NCBI GenBank assembly: GCA_013360565.1
Contig: JABWBI010000004.1
Coordinates: forward strand, 1 to 46,653
DNA from: Candidatus Sumerlaeia bacterium
Lineage (GTDB): Bacteria; Sumerlaeota; Sumerlaeia; JABWBI01
Reading direction: 5' to 3'
DNA: 46,653 nt
The notes under the pieces were generated by a model. The model worked only from the letters and a program-made list of their open reading frames with translations. It searched no databases and was not told the origin of the DNA. This document shows positions 19,509 to 34,541 of this stretch, one piece after another (position 1 is the first letter of the stretch; every line of letters begins with the position of its first letter). Made by a program: the position numbers and the translations under genes.

Positions 19509-19581
19509 CTGAAACCGGTGAGCCGGAATGGCCAAGGGCTTTGGGATTGCACAACTTGATGCGCAGCGGCAGAGAGGTCTC

Positions 19582-21651
19582 ATGAGCGCACGCCGTCAGC
19601 CATCACGTCCCGGTTCCCCGGGGCGATTCGCCACGCAGCTGCTGGCGATCACGCTCGTCATCGGAATCCTCGTGGGCGCCCTCTCGGCCCTCGGTGCCTT
19701 CACTGGCATCGAATGGTGGCTCACCAAGGCCCGGCTGAACTGGCACACCTGGGACTGGCACCCAGATGGCCCCGGCCGCGGGGCCTCCCCATTTCCCGGC
19801 GTGGCGCTTCTTCTCTTTGATCGGGCTGATCTGCTCGCAGCGGGGGCCGACGCAGAGCGTGATGGCCAGGACAGCGCGTCTTGGCACGACCGCGAGCAGC
19901 TTCAGTGGATGGTCATGCGCAGCCTGGAGATCCTGGCCGACCTCGCATCGCATGACGCCGGGCTCGCTCCGGGTGCCGTCGGCCTGGACTTCTACAATCT
20001 CGGGATGGACGACGACCGAAACGCGGAGATCGTGTCGCGGATGACGGTGGCGGCGCAGAGGCTGGAGAACGTGGTCGACGGGTACCGGCTCACGGACGAG
20101 ACGGGGAGCGACACGACGCTTGCTTCCGCCTCGCGTCACGGATTCCTCGATCTTCTTCCACCGGTGAGGTTCCTGGTGGATGAGGACGCGACGCAGACGG
20201 CGACGCTCTGGCGCCGCTCTGCCGCTTCTCGGGAGGATCAGTTCTCGCTGGGATTGGCCATCTGCATGGAGTTCGAGGCCCGGATGCGCCACCGGCCTGA
20301 GTGGAGCCCGAGCCGCGTCTCGTTCGCCTCGTGGGATGCTCTCTCGGCGGAAGGTCAACGCTGGCCACCCATGGACAGCGTCGATGACGAGCTGAGGCTG
20401 CTCTGGCCGATCATGTTTCTCCCCCCTCGCTCCAGCGGCACCTCCGAGAGCGGATCACCTGCCCGGCGGTCGGCATTTCCCGTCCTTCATTTCCGCGACA
20501 TGCTTCAGCTCGGCCGCCTGCTGAAGACGGGAGATCCCGCCGAGTGGCCTGGCCTCGGGACGGTCTTTGGCCGTGCGCTGCTCGTCGGCGTCGATCTGCC
20601 CGACGTCGATCGAATCCGAACCCCCTACAGCAATCGCCTCCACGGCTCCCAGGAGTTTCCCGGCGTCGAGGTCCACGCACAGATCGTCTGCGGACTCCTG
20701 AACGGCTGGGTCCTCCGGCCCCTCGACCGGTTCCTTCCAGCCCTCAATGGGGTTCTGCTCCTCGGACTCATGTTCGTCTCGGCCTGGGGCGCGGGGCGCC
20801 TTGCATTCGGCTGGAGCATTGTCGCGGGCGCGCTTCTCCTGGTCGCACTCCTTCTGGTCGATGCAGTCCTGTGGCACTTCGGCCACATCACGCTCCCGCT
20901 CACCCAGTGGCTAGTGGGGATCTCGATGGCCAACCGAAGCGCCGCCCAGCTCCTCGCACGGCGCGAGCGGCGGTCGCGCGATCTCGTCATGCAGCGGCTC
21001 TCGCAGCACGTCACCGAGCGGGTGGCCCATCACTTGGTTCACAGCCCGCTTGCCGGCGAGCTCGGCGGTGAGCGGCGCGAGGTGACGGTCCTCTTCAGCG
21101 ATCTGCAGGGCTTCACCTCGCTGACCGAGCGCTTGCCCCCGGAGGTGATGCTCGCATTGATGAACCGCTACCTCGACGCCATGAGCGACGAGATCGCCGC
21201 CGAGGGGGGCACGCTGGCCAATTACATCGGCGACGCGATCTTCGCGATCTTCGGCGCTCCCGATGCACTCCCCGACCACGCCCGGCGGGCCGTCAATGCC
21301 GCGATCCGGATGCAGCAGGCCCTCAGCCGGTTCAATCTCACGATCACCGCCGAGGGACACGCACCCCTCGCGCAGCGCATCGGCCTGTCCACCGGACAGG
21401 TGATCTGCGGCAATGTCGGCGGCACCAAGCGCTTCATCTGGACGGCGCTCGGCGACGCGGTGCCCATCGGGGCGCGACTCGAACCCCTCAACAAGCAGTA
21501 TGGAACCGGCATTCTGATGACGCAGGCCACTTGCGCGCAACTCGGTCCAGAGTACAATGTCCAACTCGTGGACTCGGGCATCCGAGTCCGGGGCCGGCAG
21601 GGTCTGCTCGACATCTACACCGTGGAGGTGCCTCCATGCGAAGGGGGTTGA
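19582..21651 (+). CDS. CHASE2-domain class III adenylate/guanylate cyclase-like protein
   Basis: N-terminal TM; extracytoplasmic region ending DRIRTPYSNRLHGSQEFPGVEVHAQIVCGLL (CHASE2-like); three TMs; cyclase domain EVTVLFSDLQGFTSLTERLPPE...GGTLANYIGDAIFAIFGAPD...ALGDAVPIGARLEPLN. Confidence 0.88.
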   Translation: MSARRQPSRPGSPGRFATQLLAITLVIGILVGALSALGAFTGIEWWLTKARLNWHTWDWHPDGPGRGASPFPGVALLLFDRADLLAAGADAERDGQDSASWHDREQLQWMVMRSLEILADLASHDAGLAPGAVGLDFYNLGMDDDRNAEIVSRMTVAAQRLENVVDGYRLTDETGSDTTLASASRHGFLDLLPPVRFLVDEDATQTATLWRRSAASREDQFSLGLAICMEFEARMRHRPEWSPSRVSFASWDALSAEGQRWPPMDSVDDELRLLWPIMFLPPRSSGTSESGSPARRSAFPVLHFRDMLQLGRLLKTGDPAEWPGLGTVFGRALLVGVDLPDVDRIRTPYSNRLHGSQEFPGVEVHAQIVCGLLNGWVLRPLDRFLPALNGVLLLGLMFVSAWGAGRLAFGWSIVAGALLLVALLLVDAVLWHFGHITLPLTQWLVGISMANRSAAQLLARRERRSRDLVMQRLSQHVTERVAHHLVHSPLAGELGGERREVTVLFSDLQGFTSLTERLPPEVMLALMNRYLDAMSDEIAAEGGTLANYIGDAIFAIFGAPDALPDHARRAVNAAIRMQQALSRFNLTITAEGHAPLAQRIGLSTGQVICGNVGGTKRFIWTALGDAVPIGARLEPLNKQYGTGILMTQATCAQLGPEYNVQLVDSGIRVRGRQGLLDIYTVEVPPCEGG

Positions 21652-24881: not shown

Positions 24882-25621
24882 TGATGGAAGACCTGCCGCG
24901 TGAGGAGATGTCCCGGATCTGGCGTTCGCTGGTGGAGCTCCAGCGCATCGACGCCGAGAGCCTCGCCGTCGATCAGCGGCTGTCCGCCCTCCCCGCCAAG
25001 GTGGACGCCGAGCACCAGCGCCTCGCGTCCAAGCAGGCGGCGCTGAGAGACCACGAAGCCAGGGGCGAGAGTCACGCGCGCGAGCGGCGCGAGTGCGAGC
25101 GCCAGATTGCCGAGCGCGAGGAGAAGGTGAAGCGTCTTCAGGCTCAGCTGTTTCAGGTCAAGACACAGAGGGAGTACGACGCGATCGGCGTTGAAGTCAC
25201 GGTGCTTCAGCGCGAGATCAGCGACATCGAAGACCGTGAGCTCGCGCTCATCGAGGCCGAGGAGACCCATGCGCGCGAGATCGAGGCTCTCCGCCGGGCC
25301 GTCGACGAGCTCCGGGCCGGCACCGCCAAAGAAATCAGCCGCCTCGAGAGCCTGCGGGAGGAGGCCGAGAGAACGCGTGAGGTCCTGCTGGCCGACCGGC
25401 CGCGCCATGCCTCGTCGCTGCCTGATGAGATTCTCCGGCGCTACGACACGCTCCGCCTTCGCTTCCCCGACAGCGCCGTGGTGCATGCCGTCGAGAGCAC
25501 CTGCGGCGGCTGCCGGATGGGGCTCGTCAACCAGACGATGCTGCAGCTCAACCTCGGGCAGCGATTCACCTACTGCGAACACTGCAGCCGCATGCTGGTC
25601 CCTCAGGAGAAGGCCGGATGA
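24878..25621 (+). CDS. C4-type zinc-ribbon coiled-coil protein
   Basis: Long coiled coil followed by ESTCGGCRMGLVNQTMLQLNLGQRFTYCEHCSRML. Overlaps the Nif3 stop. Confidence 0.88.
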   Translation: MMMEDLPREEMSRIWRSLVELQRIDAESLAVDQRLSALPAKVDAEHQRLASKQAALRDHEARGESHARERRECERQIAEREEKVKRLQAQLFQVKTQREYDAIGVEVTVLQREISDIEDRELALIEAEETHAREIEALRRAVDELRAGTAKEISRLESLREEAERTREVLLADRPRHASSLPDEILRRYDTLRLRFPDSAVVHAVESTCGGCRMGLVNQTMLQLNLGQRFTYCEHCSRMLVPQEKAG

Positions 25622-26721
25622 GATTCCCCCTGTTCCCTCTCATGCTCCTGGCTGCCACCGTGCTGCCCGGCCCGGCAGCCGCCGGCCCGGCGGTGGTCGG
25701 TCTCTACGCTCGGGCCCTCCCGGACGCTCAGGACCGCGCCGCGCAGTGGGACCGGTGCGAAGAGACCGGCGTCACCGATCTCTTCGTTCAGACGTTTCAC
25801 GGCGGCATGACGATCTACCCCTCCAACGCGGAGCGCACCTTCCCGCAGCGTCCTGACCTCGCGGGCACCGACCTTCTCCAGACCTACATCGACGAGGGCC
25901 ATGCGCGGGGCATCCGCATCCACGCCTGGGTGGATCTGCTTCTCTGGGGGCCGGACCGCGCCACGCTCGAACCTGGAGCACCGCTCCCCCTGGCGCTCAA
26001 CCATCCCGAGTGGCAAGTCGCCGATGCCTCGGGAGCCACGACGGGGCCCCTCTTCGTCACACCGGCTCATCCCGACGTGACGAACCGGGCCACACTCGTC
26101 TGCCTTGAGATCGCCCACTCGCACCGGGAAATCGACGGGATTCACCTCGACTACCTCCGCTACCCCGGGGGCGGCGACTTCACCTACGATGCCGCGGCTC
26201 TGCGCACTTTTCAGGGGCAGGGGCACCCCGATCCCCGGCACAATCGCAGTCCGGAGACCGCGCAGGCGTGGCGCGCACACTGCGAGAGCCGGCTGCGTGA
26301 TCTGGGCAATCAGATCGGACTGATCATCGACGGTCTCTTCGAAGATGACATCCTGGTCACCGTGGCTGTGCAGGCACGCCCCGCGGACGATGACCTGACG
26401 TATCAGAGCTGGCCCTCCTGGCTCGCCGATGGGCACATCGACGCTGCTGTGGCGCAGTGCTTCTCAGCAGACCTCGATGCCATTCACGAAGAGGCCGCGG
26501 CGGCCATCGCGGATGCGGCAGAGACGCCCTGCTGGATTGCCCTGGCGTGTCAGCCCCGCTCCGGCAGGCCGATGCCGCACGATCAGATCGCTGCGTTGGC
26601 CGGGCTGAATCCCGCCGGAGTCGTGCTCTTCAGTGACGCCTGGCTCGCGCCGGACGGCGAAGTTCGGCAGTCCATCCGCACAGTGTTGAGATCCAGTGAG
26701 GGGTCGCCGGAGGGGAGCTGA
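25618..26721 (+). CDS. Secreted GHL10/DUF187-type glycosyl hydrolase-like protein
   Basis: Signal peptide; EETGVTDLFVQTFHGGMTIYPSNAERTF; GIRIHAWVDLLLWGP; REIDGIHLDYLRYPGGGDFTYD. ATGA overlap with the upstream gene. Confidence 0.82.
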   Translation: MRFPLFPLMLLAATVLPGPAAAGPAVVGLYARALPDAQDRAAQWDRCEETGVTDLFVQTFHGGMTIYPSNAERTFPQRPDLAGTDLLQTYIDEGHARGIRIHAWVDLLLWGPDRATLEPGAPLPLALNHPEWQVADASGATTGPLFVTPAHPDVTNRATLVCLEIAHSHREIDGIHLDYLRYPGGGDFTYDAAALRTFQGQGHPDPRHNRSPETAQAWRAHCESRLRDLGNQIGLIIDGLFEDDILVTVAVQARPADDDLTYQSWPSWLADGHIDAAVAQCFSADLDAIHEEAAAAIADAAETPCWIALACQPRSGRPMPHDQIAALAGLNPAGVVLFSDAWLAPDGEVRQSIRTVLRSSEGSPEGS

Positions 26722-26722
26722 G

Positions 26723-27460
26723 TCAATGGGGACGCCCGGCGTCACCGATCTCGTCGAGAATCTCCGGCACGAGCACTGAGAGGGCTCGCACCAGCTGTCC
26801 AGCAGCCTCTCGCGCTCTCCTGCGCTGACGAATCACGGCGCGGAGACGCCCGGGATGCAACCGGAAGCGATGGGTCCCTGGGCTCTGGCCCGCCACAGAT
26901 CCGAGATCCTCCTCGACCGTGTCCAGAATCACTCTGACGGAGAGCCAGGGAATGGCGAGCCGCGAGGCGATCTGACCTGCGGCCGCACTCTCCATGTCGA
27001 CCCAGCTGACTCCATGCTTCTCGGCCGCCGCTCGCTTGGACTCCGCATCGGCCAGCGCATGGATGGACGTCAAACTCGGAGCGAAGCGCCATGGCGGTCC
27101 CTGCGCACGGACTGCGGCGCGCCCCGCTCTCTCCACGAGCCAAGCCGGAGGGGCAAGCACGGCAGGTGGAAGGAGCACCCGTTCGGAAATGCAGATGTCA
27201 CCTCCCCGCAGACTCTCAACTGTGGCGCCGGCTGTGCCCACCGACAGAATCCCGCTCAGATCGAGGCGCGTGTCGAGGTGGATGAGTGCCTGCCGGCATG
27301 CGTCGACGCCGACCCCCGTCGCGACCGCGGCGACGTTGCCCTGGGGTGTCCTCCAGCGCTGAACGGGCCAACGCCCCACCGTCAGCGGCGGGAGAGGAGT
27401 CCACCCCGCATGCCCGAGGCTCACGATTTCCTCGCGGACGGCGGCGGCGATCAGGAGCAC
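26723..27460 (-). CDS. Nucleoside phosphorylase superfamily protein (MTA/SAH nucleosidase / futalosine hydrolase / HpnG-like)
   Basis: VLLIAAAVREEIVSL; VAAVATGVGVDACRQAL; LSGILSVGTAGATVESLRGGDICISERVL; WVDMESAAAGQIASRLAIPWLSVRVILDTVEEDL. GTG start. Confidence 0.78.
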   Translation of the reverse strand: MLLIAAAVREEIVSLGHAGWTPLPPLTVGRWPVQRWRTPQGNVAAVATGVGVDACRQALIHLDTRLDLSGILSVGTAGATVESLRGGDICISERVLLPPAVLAPPAWLVERAGRAAVRAQGPPWRFAPSLTSIHALADAESKRAAAEKHGVSWVDMESAAAGQIASRLAIPWLSVRVILDTVEEDLGSVAGQSPGTHRFRLHPGRLRAVIRQRRRAREAAGQLVRALSVLVPEILDEIGDAGRPH

Positions 27461-27461
27461 G

Positions 27462-28388
27462 TCAGAGTTCCTCCCCTGGCCAGAACGCGCTCGCGAGGGG
27501 ATTGACGATGAAGACCAACACGGTGAAGAGGGCCACAAGAAAGGCCGCGCAGAGCGCAATCTCGCGCGGATTCTTTGGGATGGCGCGCCAGTTCACCCCG
27601 ACGAAGAGCGCCGCGATGAAAGGGAGCGCCGGAATGCCCGACGGTGTCAGAAGGGCTGACAGCAGTGATGTGATGATGGCGACAACCAGAGCGACGAGGT
27701 TGCGCATCAGAGGCAGGGCAAAGCGCCGTGCGACCTCGAGCAGAATGGCCGCGACGATGAGATCGCCAAAGCCGAACGCCGGCGTGACAGCGAGGCCTCC
27801 TTCCCCGGCCGGCGTCAGATTGGGGTACCAGAGCAAGAGCGCCTGCCCCAGCTCGGACTCGAGGGGGGTCTCCTGGATCTCCGCCGCGACGCGCCCCGTC
27901 GGCCCGAAGTACACGCTCCAGATGTCCACAGCCGTCAGGACGAGCACGATGGGAATGACCCAGGACAGGTTCTCCACGCGCCCGGCGATCAGCTTGCCGA
28001 TGAAGAGCGACGAACCGATCAGGGCCACGTTGGCGACGCCGAATTGGAGCACCGTCGCAAGACTGCGCTCGGGCGACGGATCGAACAGCAGATGCACCCC
28101 CTGACTGACCGCCGTGCAGATGACACCGGCGACAACAAGGCCGGGGACGGTCCATTCGAGCAGCACGCCCCGGAGAATGAGCCACATCGTCGTGAGCGTC
28201 AGGGCGAGGGCCGCAAACAGAGGCAGGAGCAGAAGCGGAGTCCCTGCGAGGCGTCCCATGGCATCTTCGGACATCGCCGCTGTGGCTGTGCTGAGAACAC
28301 TGTATGCGCCCACCCAGAGTGCGAGCGCCAAGCCGAGCCCAAGGACAGGGTTCCGATGAGTGGCATCTACCCGGCTCTCCAAAGTCAC
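27462..28388 (-). CDS. Polytopic membrane protein, candidate presenilin/SPP-type (A22) intramembrane aspartyl protease
   Basis: About 9 predicted TMs by eye. IVLVLTAVDIWSVYFGPTG (TM Asp155), VTPAFGFGDLIVAAILLEVARRF (GxGD, Asp209), SGIPALPFIAALFVG (PALP 253-256), in the order found in presenilins. Confidence 0.72.
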   Translation of the reverse strand: MTLESRVDATHRNPVLGLGLALALWVGAYSVLSTATAAMSEDAMGRLAGTPLLLLPLFAALALTLTTMWLILRGVLLEWTVPGLVVAGVICTAVSQGVHLLFDPSPERSLATVLQFGVANVALIGSSLFIGKLIAGRVENLSWVIPIVLVLTAVDIWSVYFGPTGRVAAEIQETPLESELGQALLLWYPNLTPAGEGGLAVTPAFGFGDLIVAAILLEVARRFALPLMRNLVALVVAIITSLLSALLTPSGIPALPFIAALFVGVNWRAIPKNPREIALCAAFLVALFTVLVFIVNPLASAFWPGEEL

Positions 28389-29791
28389 CGCTCAGGACTC
28401 CTGCGCGGCGGGGATGGGAATTCGCGGGCGTCTCGATCTCCCGGGAGCCACTCGGCAATGGCGATGAGGAGCCCCAGCAGCAGGCATGCGGGGAGCAGCG
28501 CGAGCCAGACCACACCGGCCCAGAGCCAGCGCAGCGACAGCAGGCGATCCGCGATCTGCCACGAGAGCTTTCCCCGCAGTGTGTCCAGCTCGGATCGAAC
28601 TTCCCGGAGCTCGTGCGTGAGCCTCGTGATCTCCCGGTCCTTCGATTCGAACGCCAGGGAGATCTCCAGCTTGCCGTCCCGTCTGCGCGGACTGCGGCAC
28701 CACACGGCCAGCGGCTCGATCGTCTTGTCCCATGTGAGGCGAGCGCGGACGAGTGCCTGAGCCTGGATGCCGCGCCGTGCGACTTCCTCCGGCTGATCCA
28801 GGGCCTCCCGGATCGCGCGCTCGATGGCATTCCGATCCGACGCATCGACCACCCATCCGGCCTCCCACTCGGCGATCAACGGCGCCAGCTCATCTCCGTC
28901 ACCATGGATCACGGGGAGACCTGCCCAGAGATAGAGGACTGTGCGCGTGGCGAAGGCCAACTCGCGCTCGGGGTTACGGGCCATCACATCGAGGGCAACA
29001 CCACAGCGGCCAATCGCGTCGACATAGGCGTCACAGGCGGTCAGGCCATGCACGCTCACGTGCGGTGAGCCCGCCAGCCTCGCCAAGAGCGCTTCGAAGC
29101 GCCCGCGGGACACATCGAGGCGCGGATGGGGACCACCCCAGAAGTGGAGGTGACCTCGCTGCCCGCACTCCATCACGTCGAGCAATGTGTCGATCGCCAG
29201 GCGCGGGTCCTGCCACGGGAGGAACATCCCCCCGTACACGAACTGATCCACCGCATGGCTCTGCTCCGGCAGGGCTGGACTGACGCTGAACGGAATCACG
29301 GGCAGCAGTTCGCTGGTCACGGGAAAGCCAGCGAGTGCCACGTGGTTGAGGAAATAGAGCCGCTGGCGTTCTCCGGAGCAGACGACGAAGTCGGCCCGGC
29401 GCAGAGCCGCGAGCTTTTCCTCGAGATGTTCGGCCCAGTTCTCGGCACCCCAGAGCCGGCGTTCGAGCAGGTGAGGACCCGCGAGGTCGATGGCGAGAGG
29501 CTGTGTCAGCGGGGGAACATCGCGCAGCAGACCCCAGTGCTGGGCGACGATGCAGCCCGGGCGCCACCGCTCAACCTGCTCGGCGATGGTCGCCGGCTCC
29601 CAGAGAAGGGCGTGGTGCGCCCGCGCGGGCTCCTCCTCCACGTCAGGCATCGCCAGCCGCCGCGTCGCAACCTTGGCATCCAATCCGGCGCAGCGCAGTC
29701 CGCGCATGAGGCCCCAGGCCCGGAGCCCGGCGCCGGTGGTGACTTGGCCGGGGAGTGGCAGGGGTTCTCCGGTGAGGACCAGGACGTCCAT
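28385..29791 (-). CDS. Glycosyltransferase (GT4-like) with C-terminal coiled coil and single C-terminal TM
   Basis: MDVLVLTGEPLPLPGQVTTGAGLRAWGLMRGL; FVYGGMFLPWQDPRLAIDTLLDVM; AFATRTVLYLWAGLPVIHGDGDELAPLIAEWEAGWVVDASD; C-terminal WLWAGVVWLALLPACLLLGLLIAIAEWL. Confidence 0.82.
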   Translation of the reverse strand: MDVLVLTGEPLPLPGQVTTGAGLRAWGLMRGLRCAGLDAKVATRRLAMPDVEEEPARAHHALLWEPATIAEQVERWRPGCIVAQHWGLLRDVPPLTQPLAIDLAGPHLLERRLWGAENWAEHLEEKLAALRRADFVVCSGERQRLYFLNHVALAGFPVTSELLPVIPFSVSPALPEQSHAVDQFVYGGMFLPWQDPRLAIDTLLDVMECGQRGHLHFWGGPHPRLDVSRGRFEALLARLAGSPHVSVHGLTACDAYVDAIGRCGVALDVMARNPERELAFATRTVLYLWAGLPVIHGDGDELAPLIAEWEAGWVVDASDRNAIERAIREALDQPEEVARRGIQAQALVRARLTWDKTIEPLAVWCRSPRRRDGKLEISLAFESKDREITRLTHELREVRSELDTLRGKLSWQIADRLLSLRWLWAGVVWLALLPACLLLGLLIAIAEWLPGDRDAREFPSPPRRSPER

Positions 29792-29801
29792 CGTCTTCCG
29801 A

Positions 29802-31154
29802 TCATCGCTCCGCGGGCAGGGAAGGCAGCCGCGTCTCCATCCAGTGCATGAGAGCAACGTCGATCAAGAGGGGCGGGGCAGGCAAGCTCAGGAGTCGCTC
29901 CGCGAAGAGGCGCGCCGCCACCTCCTCGCAGATTCGCGCCTGCAGAGATGACCGCGTCTCGCCCGTCAGCGCGTGGAACCCCTCGTGAGCCATGGCGAGC
30001 GCGCGGAGGCTCTCGAGGCCCACTCCGCGCAGCGGCGCACAGCATGGGACCTCGATCTCACGCAGCAGTGCCGCGAGCCGGGCCAGTGCTCCCCGCCAGA
30101 GGCAGATGCGACGCTCCGAGCGCTCCCAGACGCTGAAGACCATTCCGTCCTCTGGCCTGTCCTCAACCGAGATGCCCCGTCTCTCCAGCTGCTTCACCAG
30201 GCCCTCCGGTGTCGGCGGCGTCAGTGTCGCGATTGCCTGCCCGGCGAGGAGCTCCGCATCGCTCTCGATCGCCTCACGCTCTGTCCAGCTCAGGCGCTGC
30301 CCTCCAGGAAAGCCCTCCACGAAGAGATCGACGAGGTCTCGCCGCTGCTGTGCCCTGTCCTGATGCAGCCGGGCCCGGCGCCACTGGCAGATCGTGTCCT
30401 CTGTCCGGGTGCCAAGCAGCAGTCCGCCGTGACGGTGCAGCACCGGGACAACAACGCCGGTGAGCGCGGCAAGAGAGGTGACAAACATCTTCGCCTGGCC
30501 CAGCCGGGCCTCGCGCACGATGCCCGCCGCTCCGAGCACCGGGTCGATCCGGCGAAATCCCTCCGAGCTCCCAGGGACGGGGTCGACTCTCACGCGCTCG
30601 ATGCCCCCACTCGGACTTCGCCGGTGGGCAGTAACGTGGGACTGTCCCTCCTGAAAGCCGATATCCAGGTAGGGGACCTGCGCGAGTTCCTCGCACAGGT
30701 GAAGCGCGGTGTTGGTCGTCTGGTCGGTGCCGATCTGCAGGATGACTCCACCTCGATGCAGAAGCCAGCCCAGCGGGCTGCCGGGCCCGACAGCGTCACG
30801 CTGGGAGGAGGTGACCTCCTCGGCATCCGCTCCCCACGCAGCGTATGAATGCGTCGGGTGACCACTCCGATGCACGTCAGGCCGGCGCCAGAAGGTGTCC
30901 GTGACCAGTCCGACCTTCGAGGGACTCGTCGCGGGATCGTACGGGGGATTCCCCCACTCCGGCAGCGAGAAAGTGAAGGTCGGCATGACAAGAGTCCCGC
31001 TGGGTCCGAGCACCAGCTCCAGGGCATCGATGACGGCGTCCGCGCCGTCGGCCACCATGCCGATGGTCCTCAGACTGCTGTGGACGACGACACGCTGACC
31101 CGGCGCGAGACCCGCCGCGAAGAGGTCCCGGACGAGACGGTCGCGCGAGATCAC
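29802..31154 (-). CDS. AAC(3)/YokD-like N-acetyltransferase fused to a C-terminal domain with an HExxH motif
   Basis: VVVHSSLRTIGMVADGADAVIDALELVLGPSGTLVMPTFTFS; RRPDVHRSGHPTHSYAAWGADAEEVT; SPLGWLLHRGGVILQIGTDQTTNTALHLCEE; C-terminal AMAHEGFHALTGETRSSLQARICEEVAARLFAERLL. Confidence 0.8.
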   Translation of the reverse strand: MISRDRLVRDLFAAGLAPGQRVVVHSSLRTIGMVADGADAVIDALELVLGPSGTLVMPTFTFSLPEWGNPPYDPATSPSKVGLVTDTFWRRPDVHRSGHPTHSYAAWGADAEEVTSSQRDAVGPGSPLGWLLHRGGVILQIGTDQTTNTALHLCEELAQVPYLDIGFQEGQSHVTAHRRSPSGGIERVRVDPVPGSSEGFRRIDPVLGAAGIVREARLGQAKMFVTSLAALTGVVVPVLHRHGGLLLGTRTEDTICQWRRARLHQDRAQQRRDLVDLFVEGFPGGQRLSWTEREAIESDAELLAGQAIATLTPPTPEGLVKQLERRGISVEDRPEDGMVFSVWERSERRICLWRGALARLAALLREIEVPCCAPLRGVGLESLRALAMAHEGFHALTGETRSSLQARICEEVAARLFAERLLSLPAPPLLIDVALMHWMETRLPSLPAER

Positions 31155-32764: not shown

Positions 32765-33835
32765 TCAAGGGGCAAAGGCAAAGCCGCCGCGGACGAAGGC
32801 CTGCTCATCCCAGATGGCCCAGCCGGTCGCCCCGCACTCCTGGGCCGTCTGCACCTGTGTGGCGAGTGCCTCAGCCCCCTGCGCCGCATCGAGACCGGCC
32901 CAGAGCGGCATCCCCTCGGCCAGGAATCCCATCGAGAGACCCACCTCGCGCCGCACGAGGTCCTCGCCCCCGTAGATCATGGGGATCGCCAAGTCCAACG
33001 TTCCCTCGCGGAGCCAATCGGCCCAGTGCTGGGACTTCTCTTCGAGCATGTGGGGCGGATTGACCGCCGCGGTGATGGGGAGGCCCGGATGAGCGACACG
33101 CCACCGGGCGTCGAACTCGCGCATGAAGTCGTTGATGACCAGCCGGCGCCAGCTCGCGAAGGCGCTGGGCGATCCGTGACTGATGCGGGCATCCGCCTCG
33201 AACGCCGCCTGCGAGACTTCATCGTGCCCCCAGTCGGGGCCCATGTACCGAATCCGGTCAAGGTTGATCCCGTCGACCTCATAGCGGCTCGCCACGTCGA
33301 GCAACACCGACGCGATGAACTCGCGCGCCTCCGGGACCGCCGGGTTCACCATGAAGTGATTGACGCCAAGGTCCTCGTTCCAGAGTGCGATCTCGCCGGA
33401 GGCATTCTCGACGCGCCACCCGGGGTGGGCCTCCAGGACCCAGCCGCAGTCCGTCTCGTCGCCCTGCTCCCGATTGTAGTGGACGAAGAAGCCATACTCG
33501 GCCCAGGGCCACACCATCAGACCGCGGGCGTGGGCTTCGCGCACGGTCACTGCCATCGGGTCCCAACCCACGAAGTCCGGGTGCTGAGGGGCCAGGTCGC
33601 TGCCGGGGTAGAGCAGGTGCCCATGGAACCAGAAGTTGGGCATGATCACATCGATGCCCCGCTCCGCACAGGTCTCGATGAACTCCGCGATGGCCGCCTC
33701 GCCGGAGGCCATCAGGTGGCGATTGAGCCAGATTCCCGACGTCGCCTCTCCCGCGCCGGGAACCGGCCCGTCCGCCTGAGCCGGGGCCTGCGCCACGGCC
33801 GCCACGATGACGAGCGCAGTCAGAGCGTGCTTCAT
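32765..33835 (-). CDS. Secreted GHL10-type glycosyl hydrolase-like protein
   Basis: Signal peptide MKHALTALVIVAAVAQAPAQA; EFIETCAERGIDVIMPNFWFHGHLLYPGSD; YEVDGINLDRIRYMGPDWGHD; LDLAIPMIYGGED. Confidence 0.85.
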   Translation of the reverse strand: MKHALTALVIVAAVAQAPAQADGPVPGAGEATSGIWLNRHLMASGEAAIAEFIETCAERGIDVIMPNFWFHGHLLYPGSDLAPQHPDFVGWDPMAVTVREAHARGLMVWPWAEYGFFVHYNREQGDETDCGWVLEAHPGWRVENASGEIALWNEDLGVNHFMVNPAVPEAREFIASVLLDVASRYEVDGINLDRIRYMGPDWGHDEVSQAAFEADARISHGSPSAFASWRRLVINDFMREFDARWRVAHPGLPITAAVNPPHMLEEKSQHWADWLREGTLDLAIPMIYGGEDLVRREVGLSMGFLAEGMPLWAGLDAAQGAEALATQVQTAQECGATGWAIWDEQAFVRGGFAFAP

Positions 33836-33858
33836 GCGATGCCTCCGGCGACAGAGAC

Positions 33859-33883
33859 GGCTCCGGGCACGGGACCCGGAGCC
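33859..33883 (-). terminator. 9-bp GC hairpin downstream of the pseudopilin gene
   Basis: ggctccggg-cacggga-cccggagcc between the pilin stop (33915) and the start of the next minus-strand gene (33835). Confidence 0.4.
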
Positions 33884-33914
33884 GCGGAAGATGGGCAACG
33901 TCAGGCCGCCGGAT

Positions 33915-34541
33915 TCACTGGCGCAGACGAACGATGTCACCGTTGCTGATGGTGCCGTTCGTGGCGTCGTACTGCCAGATCGGGGACGGGAAGCCAGCGT
34001 CGAGCACGTCGAAGTCCCGGTCCGGCCCGAAGCTTAGTGACGCCCAGAGCGGCTCACGCAGCAAATTCGTCCCGTCCGACACCTCGGGCCAGTAGACGAA
34101 AATCATCTGAGCCGTGCGCGGGCGCTGGTTCACGGTGGTCCCACTCATCGTGATGTACTCGACGAGGAAATCGGTGCCCCAGTAGACGAGCACGCGCTGG
34201 TCCGAGGCCCCGAACCCCGCCGGTGGCAGCGCGGTCGCATTGAAGGCATCCGGGAAGGCCGATGTGATGTAGGCGACCGGGGTGGTCAGCGCGGTGTAAG
34301 CGCGGATGCGCGGCGACCACGTGGCGTCGGTCGTCTTGTCGACGGACAGGGGATAGCGGTTGTAGTCGATGTAGTACGACTCGATGGCCGTGGCGAGCGA
34401 GCGCTGGTCGGCGCGCACGCGGGAGACCTTCGCTCTCGTCTGCGCCTCGAGGAAGTTTGGGACGGCGATCGCCGCGAGAATCGCGATGATCGCCACGACG
34501 ATGAGCAACTCAATCAGGGTGAAACCCCGAAGTCGATGCAT
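33915..34541 (-). CDS. Type II secretion/type IV pilin-like pseudopilin (GspG-like)
   Basis: MHRLRGFTLIELLIVVAIIAILAAIAVPNFLEAQTRAKVSRVRADQRSLATAIESYYIDYNRYP is a prepilin peptidase motif and N-terminal helix. Confidence 0.92.
   Translation of the reverse strand: MHRLRGFTLIELLIVVAIIAILAAIAVPNFLEAQTRAKVSRVRADQRSLATAIESYYIDYNRYPLSVDKTTDATWSPRIRAYTALTTPVAYITSAFPDAFNATALPPAGFGASDQRVLVYWGTDFLVEYITMSGTTVNQRPRTAQMIFVYWPEVSDGTNLLREPLWASLSFGPDRDFDVLDAGFPSPIWQYDATNGTISNGDIVRLRQ

Follow-up and report, generated by a model that had tools for sequence, protein, structure and literature searches.

A candidate presenilin/SPP-class intramembrane aspartyl protease in a Sumerlaeota bacterium and its relatives in other bacterial lineages

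The window, by which is meant the whole stretch of DNA analysed here (46,653 nucleotides of contig JABWBI010000004.1, assembly GCA_013360565.1), comes from a genome of Candidatus Sumerlaeia bacterium (Sumerlaeota) of 3.33 Mb and 82% completeness. On its minus strand the reading frame 27462-28388 is free of stops and translates into a protein of 308 amino acids, referred to below as the window protein. The gene, its putative functional residues and its immediate neighbours are the following.

28385..29857, minus strand: upstream neighbour, glycosyltransferase-like (GT1), sharing a GTGA overlap with the candidate protease gene and kept in G001, a genome of the same family
28398..28402, minus strand: AGGAG ribosome-binding site, 9 nt 5′ of the GTG start (from the sequence)
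27462..28388, minus strand: gene for the presenilin/SPP-like protein, 308 amino acids, nine helices, GTG start (from translation and structural model)
27924..27926, minus strand: codon of Asp155, putative first catalytic aspartate, in the motif VDIWSVYFGPT within helix 141-160 (invariant, 44/44)
27822..27824, minus strand: Pro189, a family-specific invariant residue in the loop joining the two aspartate helices (44/44)
27762..27773, minus strand: GFGD, residues 206-209, at the start of helix 207-222, with Asp209 as putative second catalytic aspartate (G206 and D209 invariant, 44/44)
27621..27632, minus strand: PALP, residues 253-256, counterpart of the PAL motif, directly before or at the start of helix 255-265 (P253 43/43; aligned with PALP of presenilin-1)
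26723..27460, minus strand: downstream neighbour, a phosphorylase-superfamily nucleosidase with a likely GTG start at 27460

The GTG start overlaps the stop codon of the upstream glycosyltransferase gene as GTGA, and a possible start of the downstream nucleosidase gene lies 1 nt past the stop of the 308-codon frame. With the AGGAG sequence added, this frame looks like a real, translated gene. Other long open reading frames across 27462-28388 were unsupported and were read as shadows typical of a gene with 67% GC.

A sequence-only reading of this DNA had taken the protein for a presenilin-like GxGD protease on the strength of Asp155, GFGD and PALP, and the positions that it gave for all three agree exactly with the translation. 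Conservation was counted over 44 aligned family members, most of which share 20-35% identity with the window protein; in this set D155, P189, G206 and D209 are each present in 44/44, G162 in 43/44 and P253 in 43/43 of the rows that carry a residue at that position, so that the chosen motifs go beyond chance. The first 10 relatives, at 20-53% identity with the window protein, all carry D155, S158, G162, P189, G206 and D209, with P253 and P256 close to invariant. The remotest members of the family retain both aspartates, P189, G206 and the PAL motif and little more. Four of the seven motif residues singled out beforehand fall within the eight most conserved of the 308 columns (hypergeometric 6e-6, a value that ignores the general bias towards conservation of D, G and P). 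Retention of this kind in the remotest members is what would be expected if the residues kept there are catalytic.

The window protein carries GFGD and PALP in their canonical forms. Roughly two in three of the 44 members have T, S, A or P in place of the second glycine of GxGD, so the family motif is better written G-x-[GTSAP]-D, and the PAL segment mostly reads P-[AVG]-[LI]-P. The tyrosine of the YD motif is absent from the window protein, which has V154 there, and from nearly all relatives; a single member (L029) has YD. Around the first aspartate a D-x-W-S-V-x-x-G motif (27903-27926 in the window) is conserved and, like Pro189 of the inter-aspartate loop, family-specific. The three most distant members (L028, L029 and L085) keep D...G-x-A-D...PAL and have lost WSV and GPT; they could be a link between the bacterial branch and the forms known from archaea or eukaryotes.

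Searched singly, the window protein matched zero Pfam families at E<=10, PF04258 (Peptidase_A22B) included, and gave no credible match in NCBIfam or among PDB sequences; the family is without a curated Pfam or NCBIfam model, and the PDB is without a close structure. A profile built from 11 members and run against 177,635 PDB sequences returned a single match at E<=10, the C-terminal fragment of human presenilin-1 (2kr6, E=0.0018), in whose alignment GLGD and PALP stand in register with the GxGD and PAL motifs of the family and the spacing from aspartate to PAL is 48 residues, compared with 44 here. With 17 members (profile A2) the same fragment still ranked first at a weaker E=0.018, and noise in the form of GABA-A receptors appeared; sequence evidence of this kind is therefore insufficient by itself for assignment to the presenilin/SPP class. 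Among scanned members the sole recurring Pfam family was Presenilin (PF01080), matched by two relatives (E 0.0031 at best, and E 0.036 with 13.3 bits for the second); the curated cut-off of 34.3 bits was reached by no member, and there were no matches to other SPP-family models. PF06550, the archaeal-type SPP model, was found in 0/192 related genomes, that of the window included, with positive controls in two archaea. The Pfam check proposed by the sequence-only reading (PF01080, PF04258, PF06550) thus gave nothing above a curated cut-off for the window protein. A scan of genome contigs with P0001, a scan of viral contigs with A3 and a tblastn search of plasmids likewise found nothing.

AlphaFold models were obtained for the window protein (pLDDT 68, pTM 0.72, from an alignment of 8 rows) and for a second Sumerlaeota member that is 33% identical to it (pLDDT 73, pTM 0.75); both are of medium confidence and derive from shallow alignments of 8 sequences. 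Each contains nine hydrophobic helices, which in the window protein span residues 14-38, 54-76, 81-101, 109-136, 141-160 (with D155), 207-222 (with D209), 227-247, 255-265 and 274-302. The GxGD motif thus lies in the helix next after that of D155, and the PAL motif comes two helices after the GxGD helix. The last two helices also bear out the extra membrane segment that the sequence-only reading had noticed after PALP.

Both models were compared by Foldseek with about 350,000 PDB chains. For the window protein ranks 1-7 were all presenilin-1 of gamma-secretase, with probabilities up to 0.99, and the archaeal PSH structures 4y6k and 4hyg stood at ranks 11 and 13. For the second member ranks 1-11 were all presenilin-1 or human SPPL2a, with probabilities of 0.72-1.00 (0.99 for SPPL2a 9k92); among the matches listed no other fold exceeded 0.2, and a further gamma-secretase chain appeared at rank 34. 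In a separate viral library the best match of this second model was a signal peptide peptidase of a giant virus (Megaviridae). Absolute scores were modest (best E 0.015, none below 0.001, TM-scores 0.3-0.4), as would be expected of medium-confidence models. A transporter or prepilin-peptidase fold, either of which would have counted against the original proposal, was absent from the fold matches listed.

Presenilin, the Alzheimer's protease in human, and SPP belong to the same class of proteases that cut within the membrane. The window protein shares with the MEROPS A22-type class about nine transmembrane helices, an aspartate in a transmembrane helix, GxGD in the next helix, a PAL motif and the fold ranking; the tyrosine before the first aspartate is missing, the aspartate itself being present. 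Human presenilin-1, the best match by profile and by fold, has the same order of aspartate helix, GxGD helix and PAL segment, with 48 residues separating its second aspartate and PAL proline in the profile alignment as against 44. It differs in that the bacterial protein is one helix short ahead of the first aspartate, has an additional one behind PAL, lacks a loop of presenilin size between the aspartates, and is predicted to be oriented the opposite way. The corresponding loop is short, at about 46 residues, as it is in archaeal PSH. That enzyme (MCMJR1 of Methanoculleus marisnigri; 4hyg, 4y6k), found among the fold matches, is likewise a single-chain prokaryotic di-aspartyl GxGD protein, and it is a proven enzyme whose aspartates D162 and D220 are 58 residues apart (PMC2947513), close to the 54 that separate D155 from D209. 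The two differ in their motifs, MCMJR1 having YD without an obvious PAL, whereas the bacterial protein has PALP without the tyrosine. SPP and SPPL2a resemble the window protein in the fold of its models and in the predicted orientation of the catalytic loop, yet sequence identity to them is very low and PF06550 is unmatched in the source genome and in the relatives.

The family was found in 5/40 Sumerlaeota genomes, in 24/40 genomes of a phylum (that of G156) grouping with a Riflebacteria record (L042), and also in Abditibacteriales, UBP13 and further bacterial lineages; of 386 genomes in a broad sample, 19 gave a match at E<=0.001, which in two cases was marginal. In a maximum-likelihood tree one clade (support 98/92) holds 4/5 of the Sumerlaeota proteins, and the proteins of the Riflebacteria phylum for the most part cluster, a grouping as expected if descent has been mostly vertical; several branches are long and deep placement is unsure. 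Some members are fused to other domains. A protein of 1132 amino acids (L051, 5403-8801, minus strand) joins the presenilin-like domain to an extracellular-type region, a HAMP domain and a class III guanylate/adenylate cyclase, and its genome holds a stand-alone copy as well (L004). Four others of about 610 amino acids (L074, L092, L095 and L096), found in one family of the Riflebacteria-type phylum, have an extra N-terminal membrane region ahead of a C-terminal presenilin-like domain; the one of the four that was tested, L074, weakly matches HisKA_7TM in its N-terminal region. Both aspartates are retained in all fusions, and the cyclase and 7TM fusions point to possible signalling uses in these other lineages.

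Taken together, the rankings, obtained independently and in agreement with one another, and the conservation argue that the window protein is a presenilin/SPP-class intramembrane aspartyl protease, of a bacterial branch absent from family libraries (probability roughly 0.87). That it works as a GxGD-type intramembrane protease is also highly likely, judging from sequence, conservation and the resemblance in profile and fold. The proposal of a presenilin-class GxGD protease in a Gram-negative-type bacterium has thus held up on conservation, on the profile match to presenilin-1 and on the fold searches with two models; membership in the presenilin family proper has fared less well, PF01080 and PF06550 having no match to the window protein and PF01080 being matched weakly by two relatives.

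A protein of presenilin fold without protease activity, whether lost or never acquired, that acts as a membrane sensor, scaffold or ion leak would account for the fusions to signalling modules (HAMP and cyclase in L051, 7TM-type regions in L074, L092, L095 and L096) and for the frequent loss of the second GxGD glycine. The aspartates and the PAL proline are nevertheless invariant even in fusions and in the remotest members; without catalysis this would be difficult to account for, and the reading is judged improbable. Far less probable still is a protease of the type IV prepilin peptidase kind (A24) cutting at the membrane surface. Such enzymes are also bacterial di-aspartyl GxGD membrane proteases, and there is a pseudopilin-type gene at a distance of about 6 kb (33915-34541), but they differ from the window protein in fold and in cleaving at the surface, their aspartates being placed in soluble regions with several helices between them (PMC2947513). 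Here the aspartates sit in successive helices, a PAL counterpart exists, neither an A24 domain nor any other Pfam match was obtained, and no prepilin-peptidase or FlaK entry occurs among the matches listed from both PDB fold searches. If the protein were instead an unrelated polytopic transporter with convergent motifs, the low identity to presenilins and the Foldseek E-values above 0.001 would be understandable; since the profile, Pfam and three fold searches with two models all put presenilin/SPP first and bring no second family near, this too is very hard to credit.

For the presenilin/SPP-class reading, a model of action can be outlined. Lysine and arginine are richer in the even-numbered loops (after helices 2, 4, 6 and 8) in 17/17 aligned members, and in the window protein the loop joining the aspartate helices is acidic. 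By the positive-inside rule this charge count places the N-terminus in the cytoplasm and the loop between the aspartates in the periplasm, so that, given a working protease, the catalytic loop is probably oriented as in SPP and opposite to presenilin. The term presenilin-like used in the sequence-only reading would accordingly suit the fold and the chemistry, while in substrate orientation the protein is predicted to be of SPP type. SPP and SPPL enzymes have their catalytic centre the other way round from presenilin, which may be why they prefer type II segments (PMC7366577), and by the same argument the likely substrates here would be N-in (type II) segments. The nine helices would span the inner membrane, with Asp155 in helix 5 and Asp209 of GFGD in helix 6 forming a water-activating pair and PALP253-256 giving the active site its shape, as the motif does in presenilin. 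Spent signal peptides, signal anchors and the remnants of a preceding cleavage would be the likely N-in substrates. Because neighbouring genes vary by lineage, a broad role in membrane clearance seems likelier than a single dedicated substrate, and the preferred view is a general function, for example the clearing of signal peptides or membrane stubs; a dedicated substrate encoded next to the gene is unlikely. Replacement of SppA by the protein was considered and rejected, as SppA-type S49 peptidases coexist with it in the source genome and in nearly the whole phylum (38/40 genomes).

GxGD intramembrane proteases have been described from eukaryotes and archaea (PMC2947513, PMC9263693). The open literature searched yielded no account of a presenilin/SPP family in bacteria; the phrase "bacterial presenilin homologue" occurs in passing with the organism not named (PMC8396450), and an earlier mention is possible in Raut et al. 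2021 (Proteins 89:232), which lay outside the scope of this survey. The family is very probably a widespread and uncatalogued bacterial branch of the presenilin/SPP class. The wider proposition, that it is an old third GxGD branch beside archaeal PSH and eukaryotic presenilin/SPP, tolerant of loss of the second glycine and built into signalling proteins, so that bacteria carry out regulated intramembrane proteolysis of presenilin/SPP type, is put forward with odds slightly above even. If true, such a branch in bacteria would alter the view of where the class originated. For structural and inhibitor work it would offer small single-chain homologues with a true PALP, a motif missing from MCMJR1, and it would raise the question of what the bacterial substrates are when S49 peptidases are present as well.

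The order argB, nanE, AAC(3)-like acyltransferase, glycosyltransferase, candidate protease and nucleosidase is partly kept, and only in G001; no neighbour is conserved across lineages, and elsewhere the flanking genes are unrelated, for example truA/purN/recN-like or dapF-like ones (named by sequence inspection). Two GHL10 glycosyl-hydrolase-like proteins on opposite strands bracket the cluster (25618-26721, plus strand; 32765-33940, minus strand), and a protein with CHASE2 and adenylate cyclase domains is encoded about 6 kb downstream of the candidate protease gene (19528-21651, plus strand). Between nanE and the glycosyltransferase gene, the frame 29802-31154 (minus strand) encodes an acyltransferase domain of the Antibiotic_NAT (AAC(3)) type that is extended at its C-terminus by about 200 amino acids, and its product is more likely a sugar-acting acyltransferase than a resistance protein.
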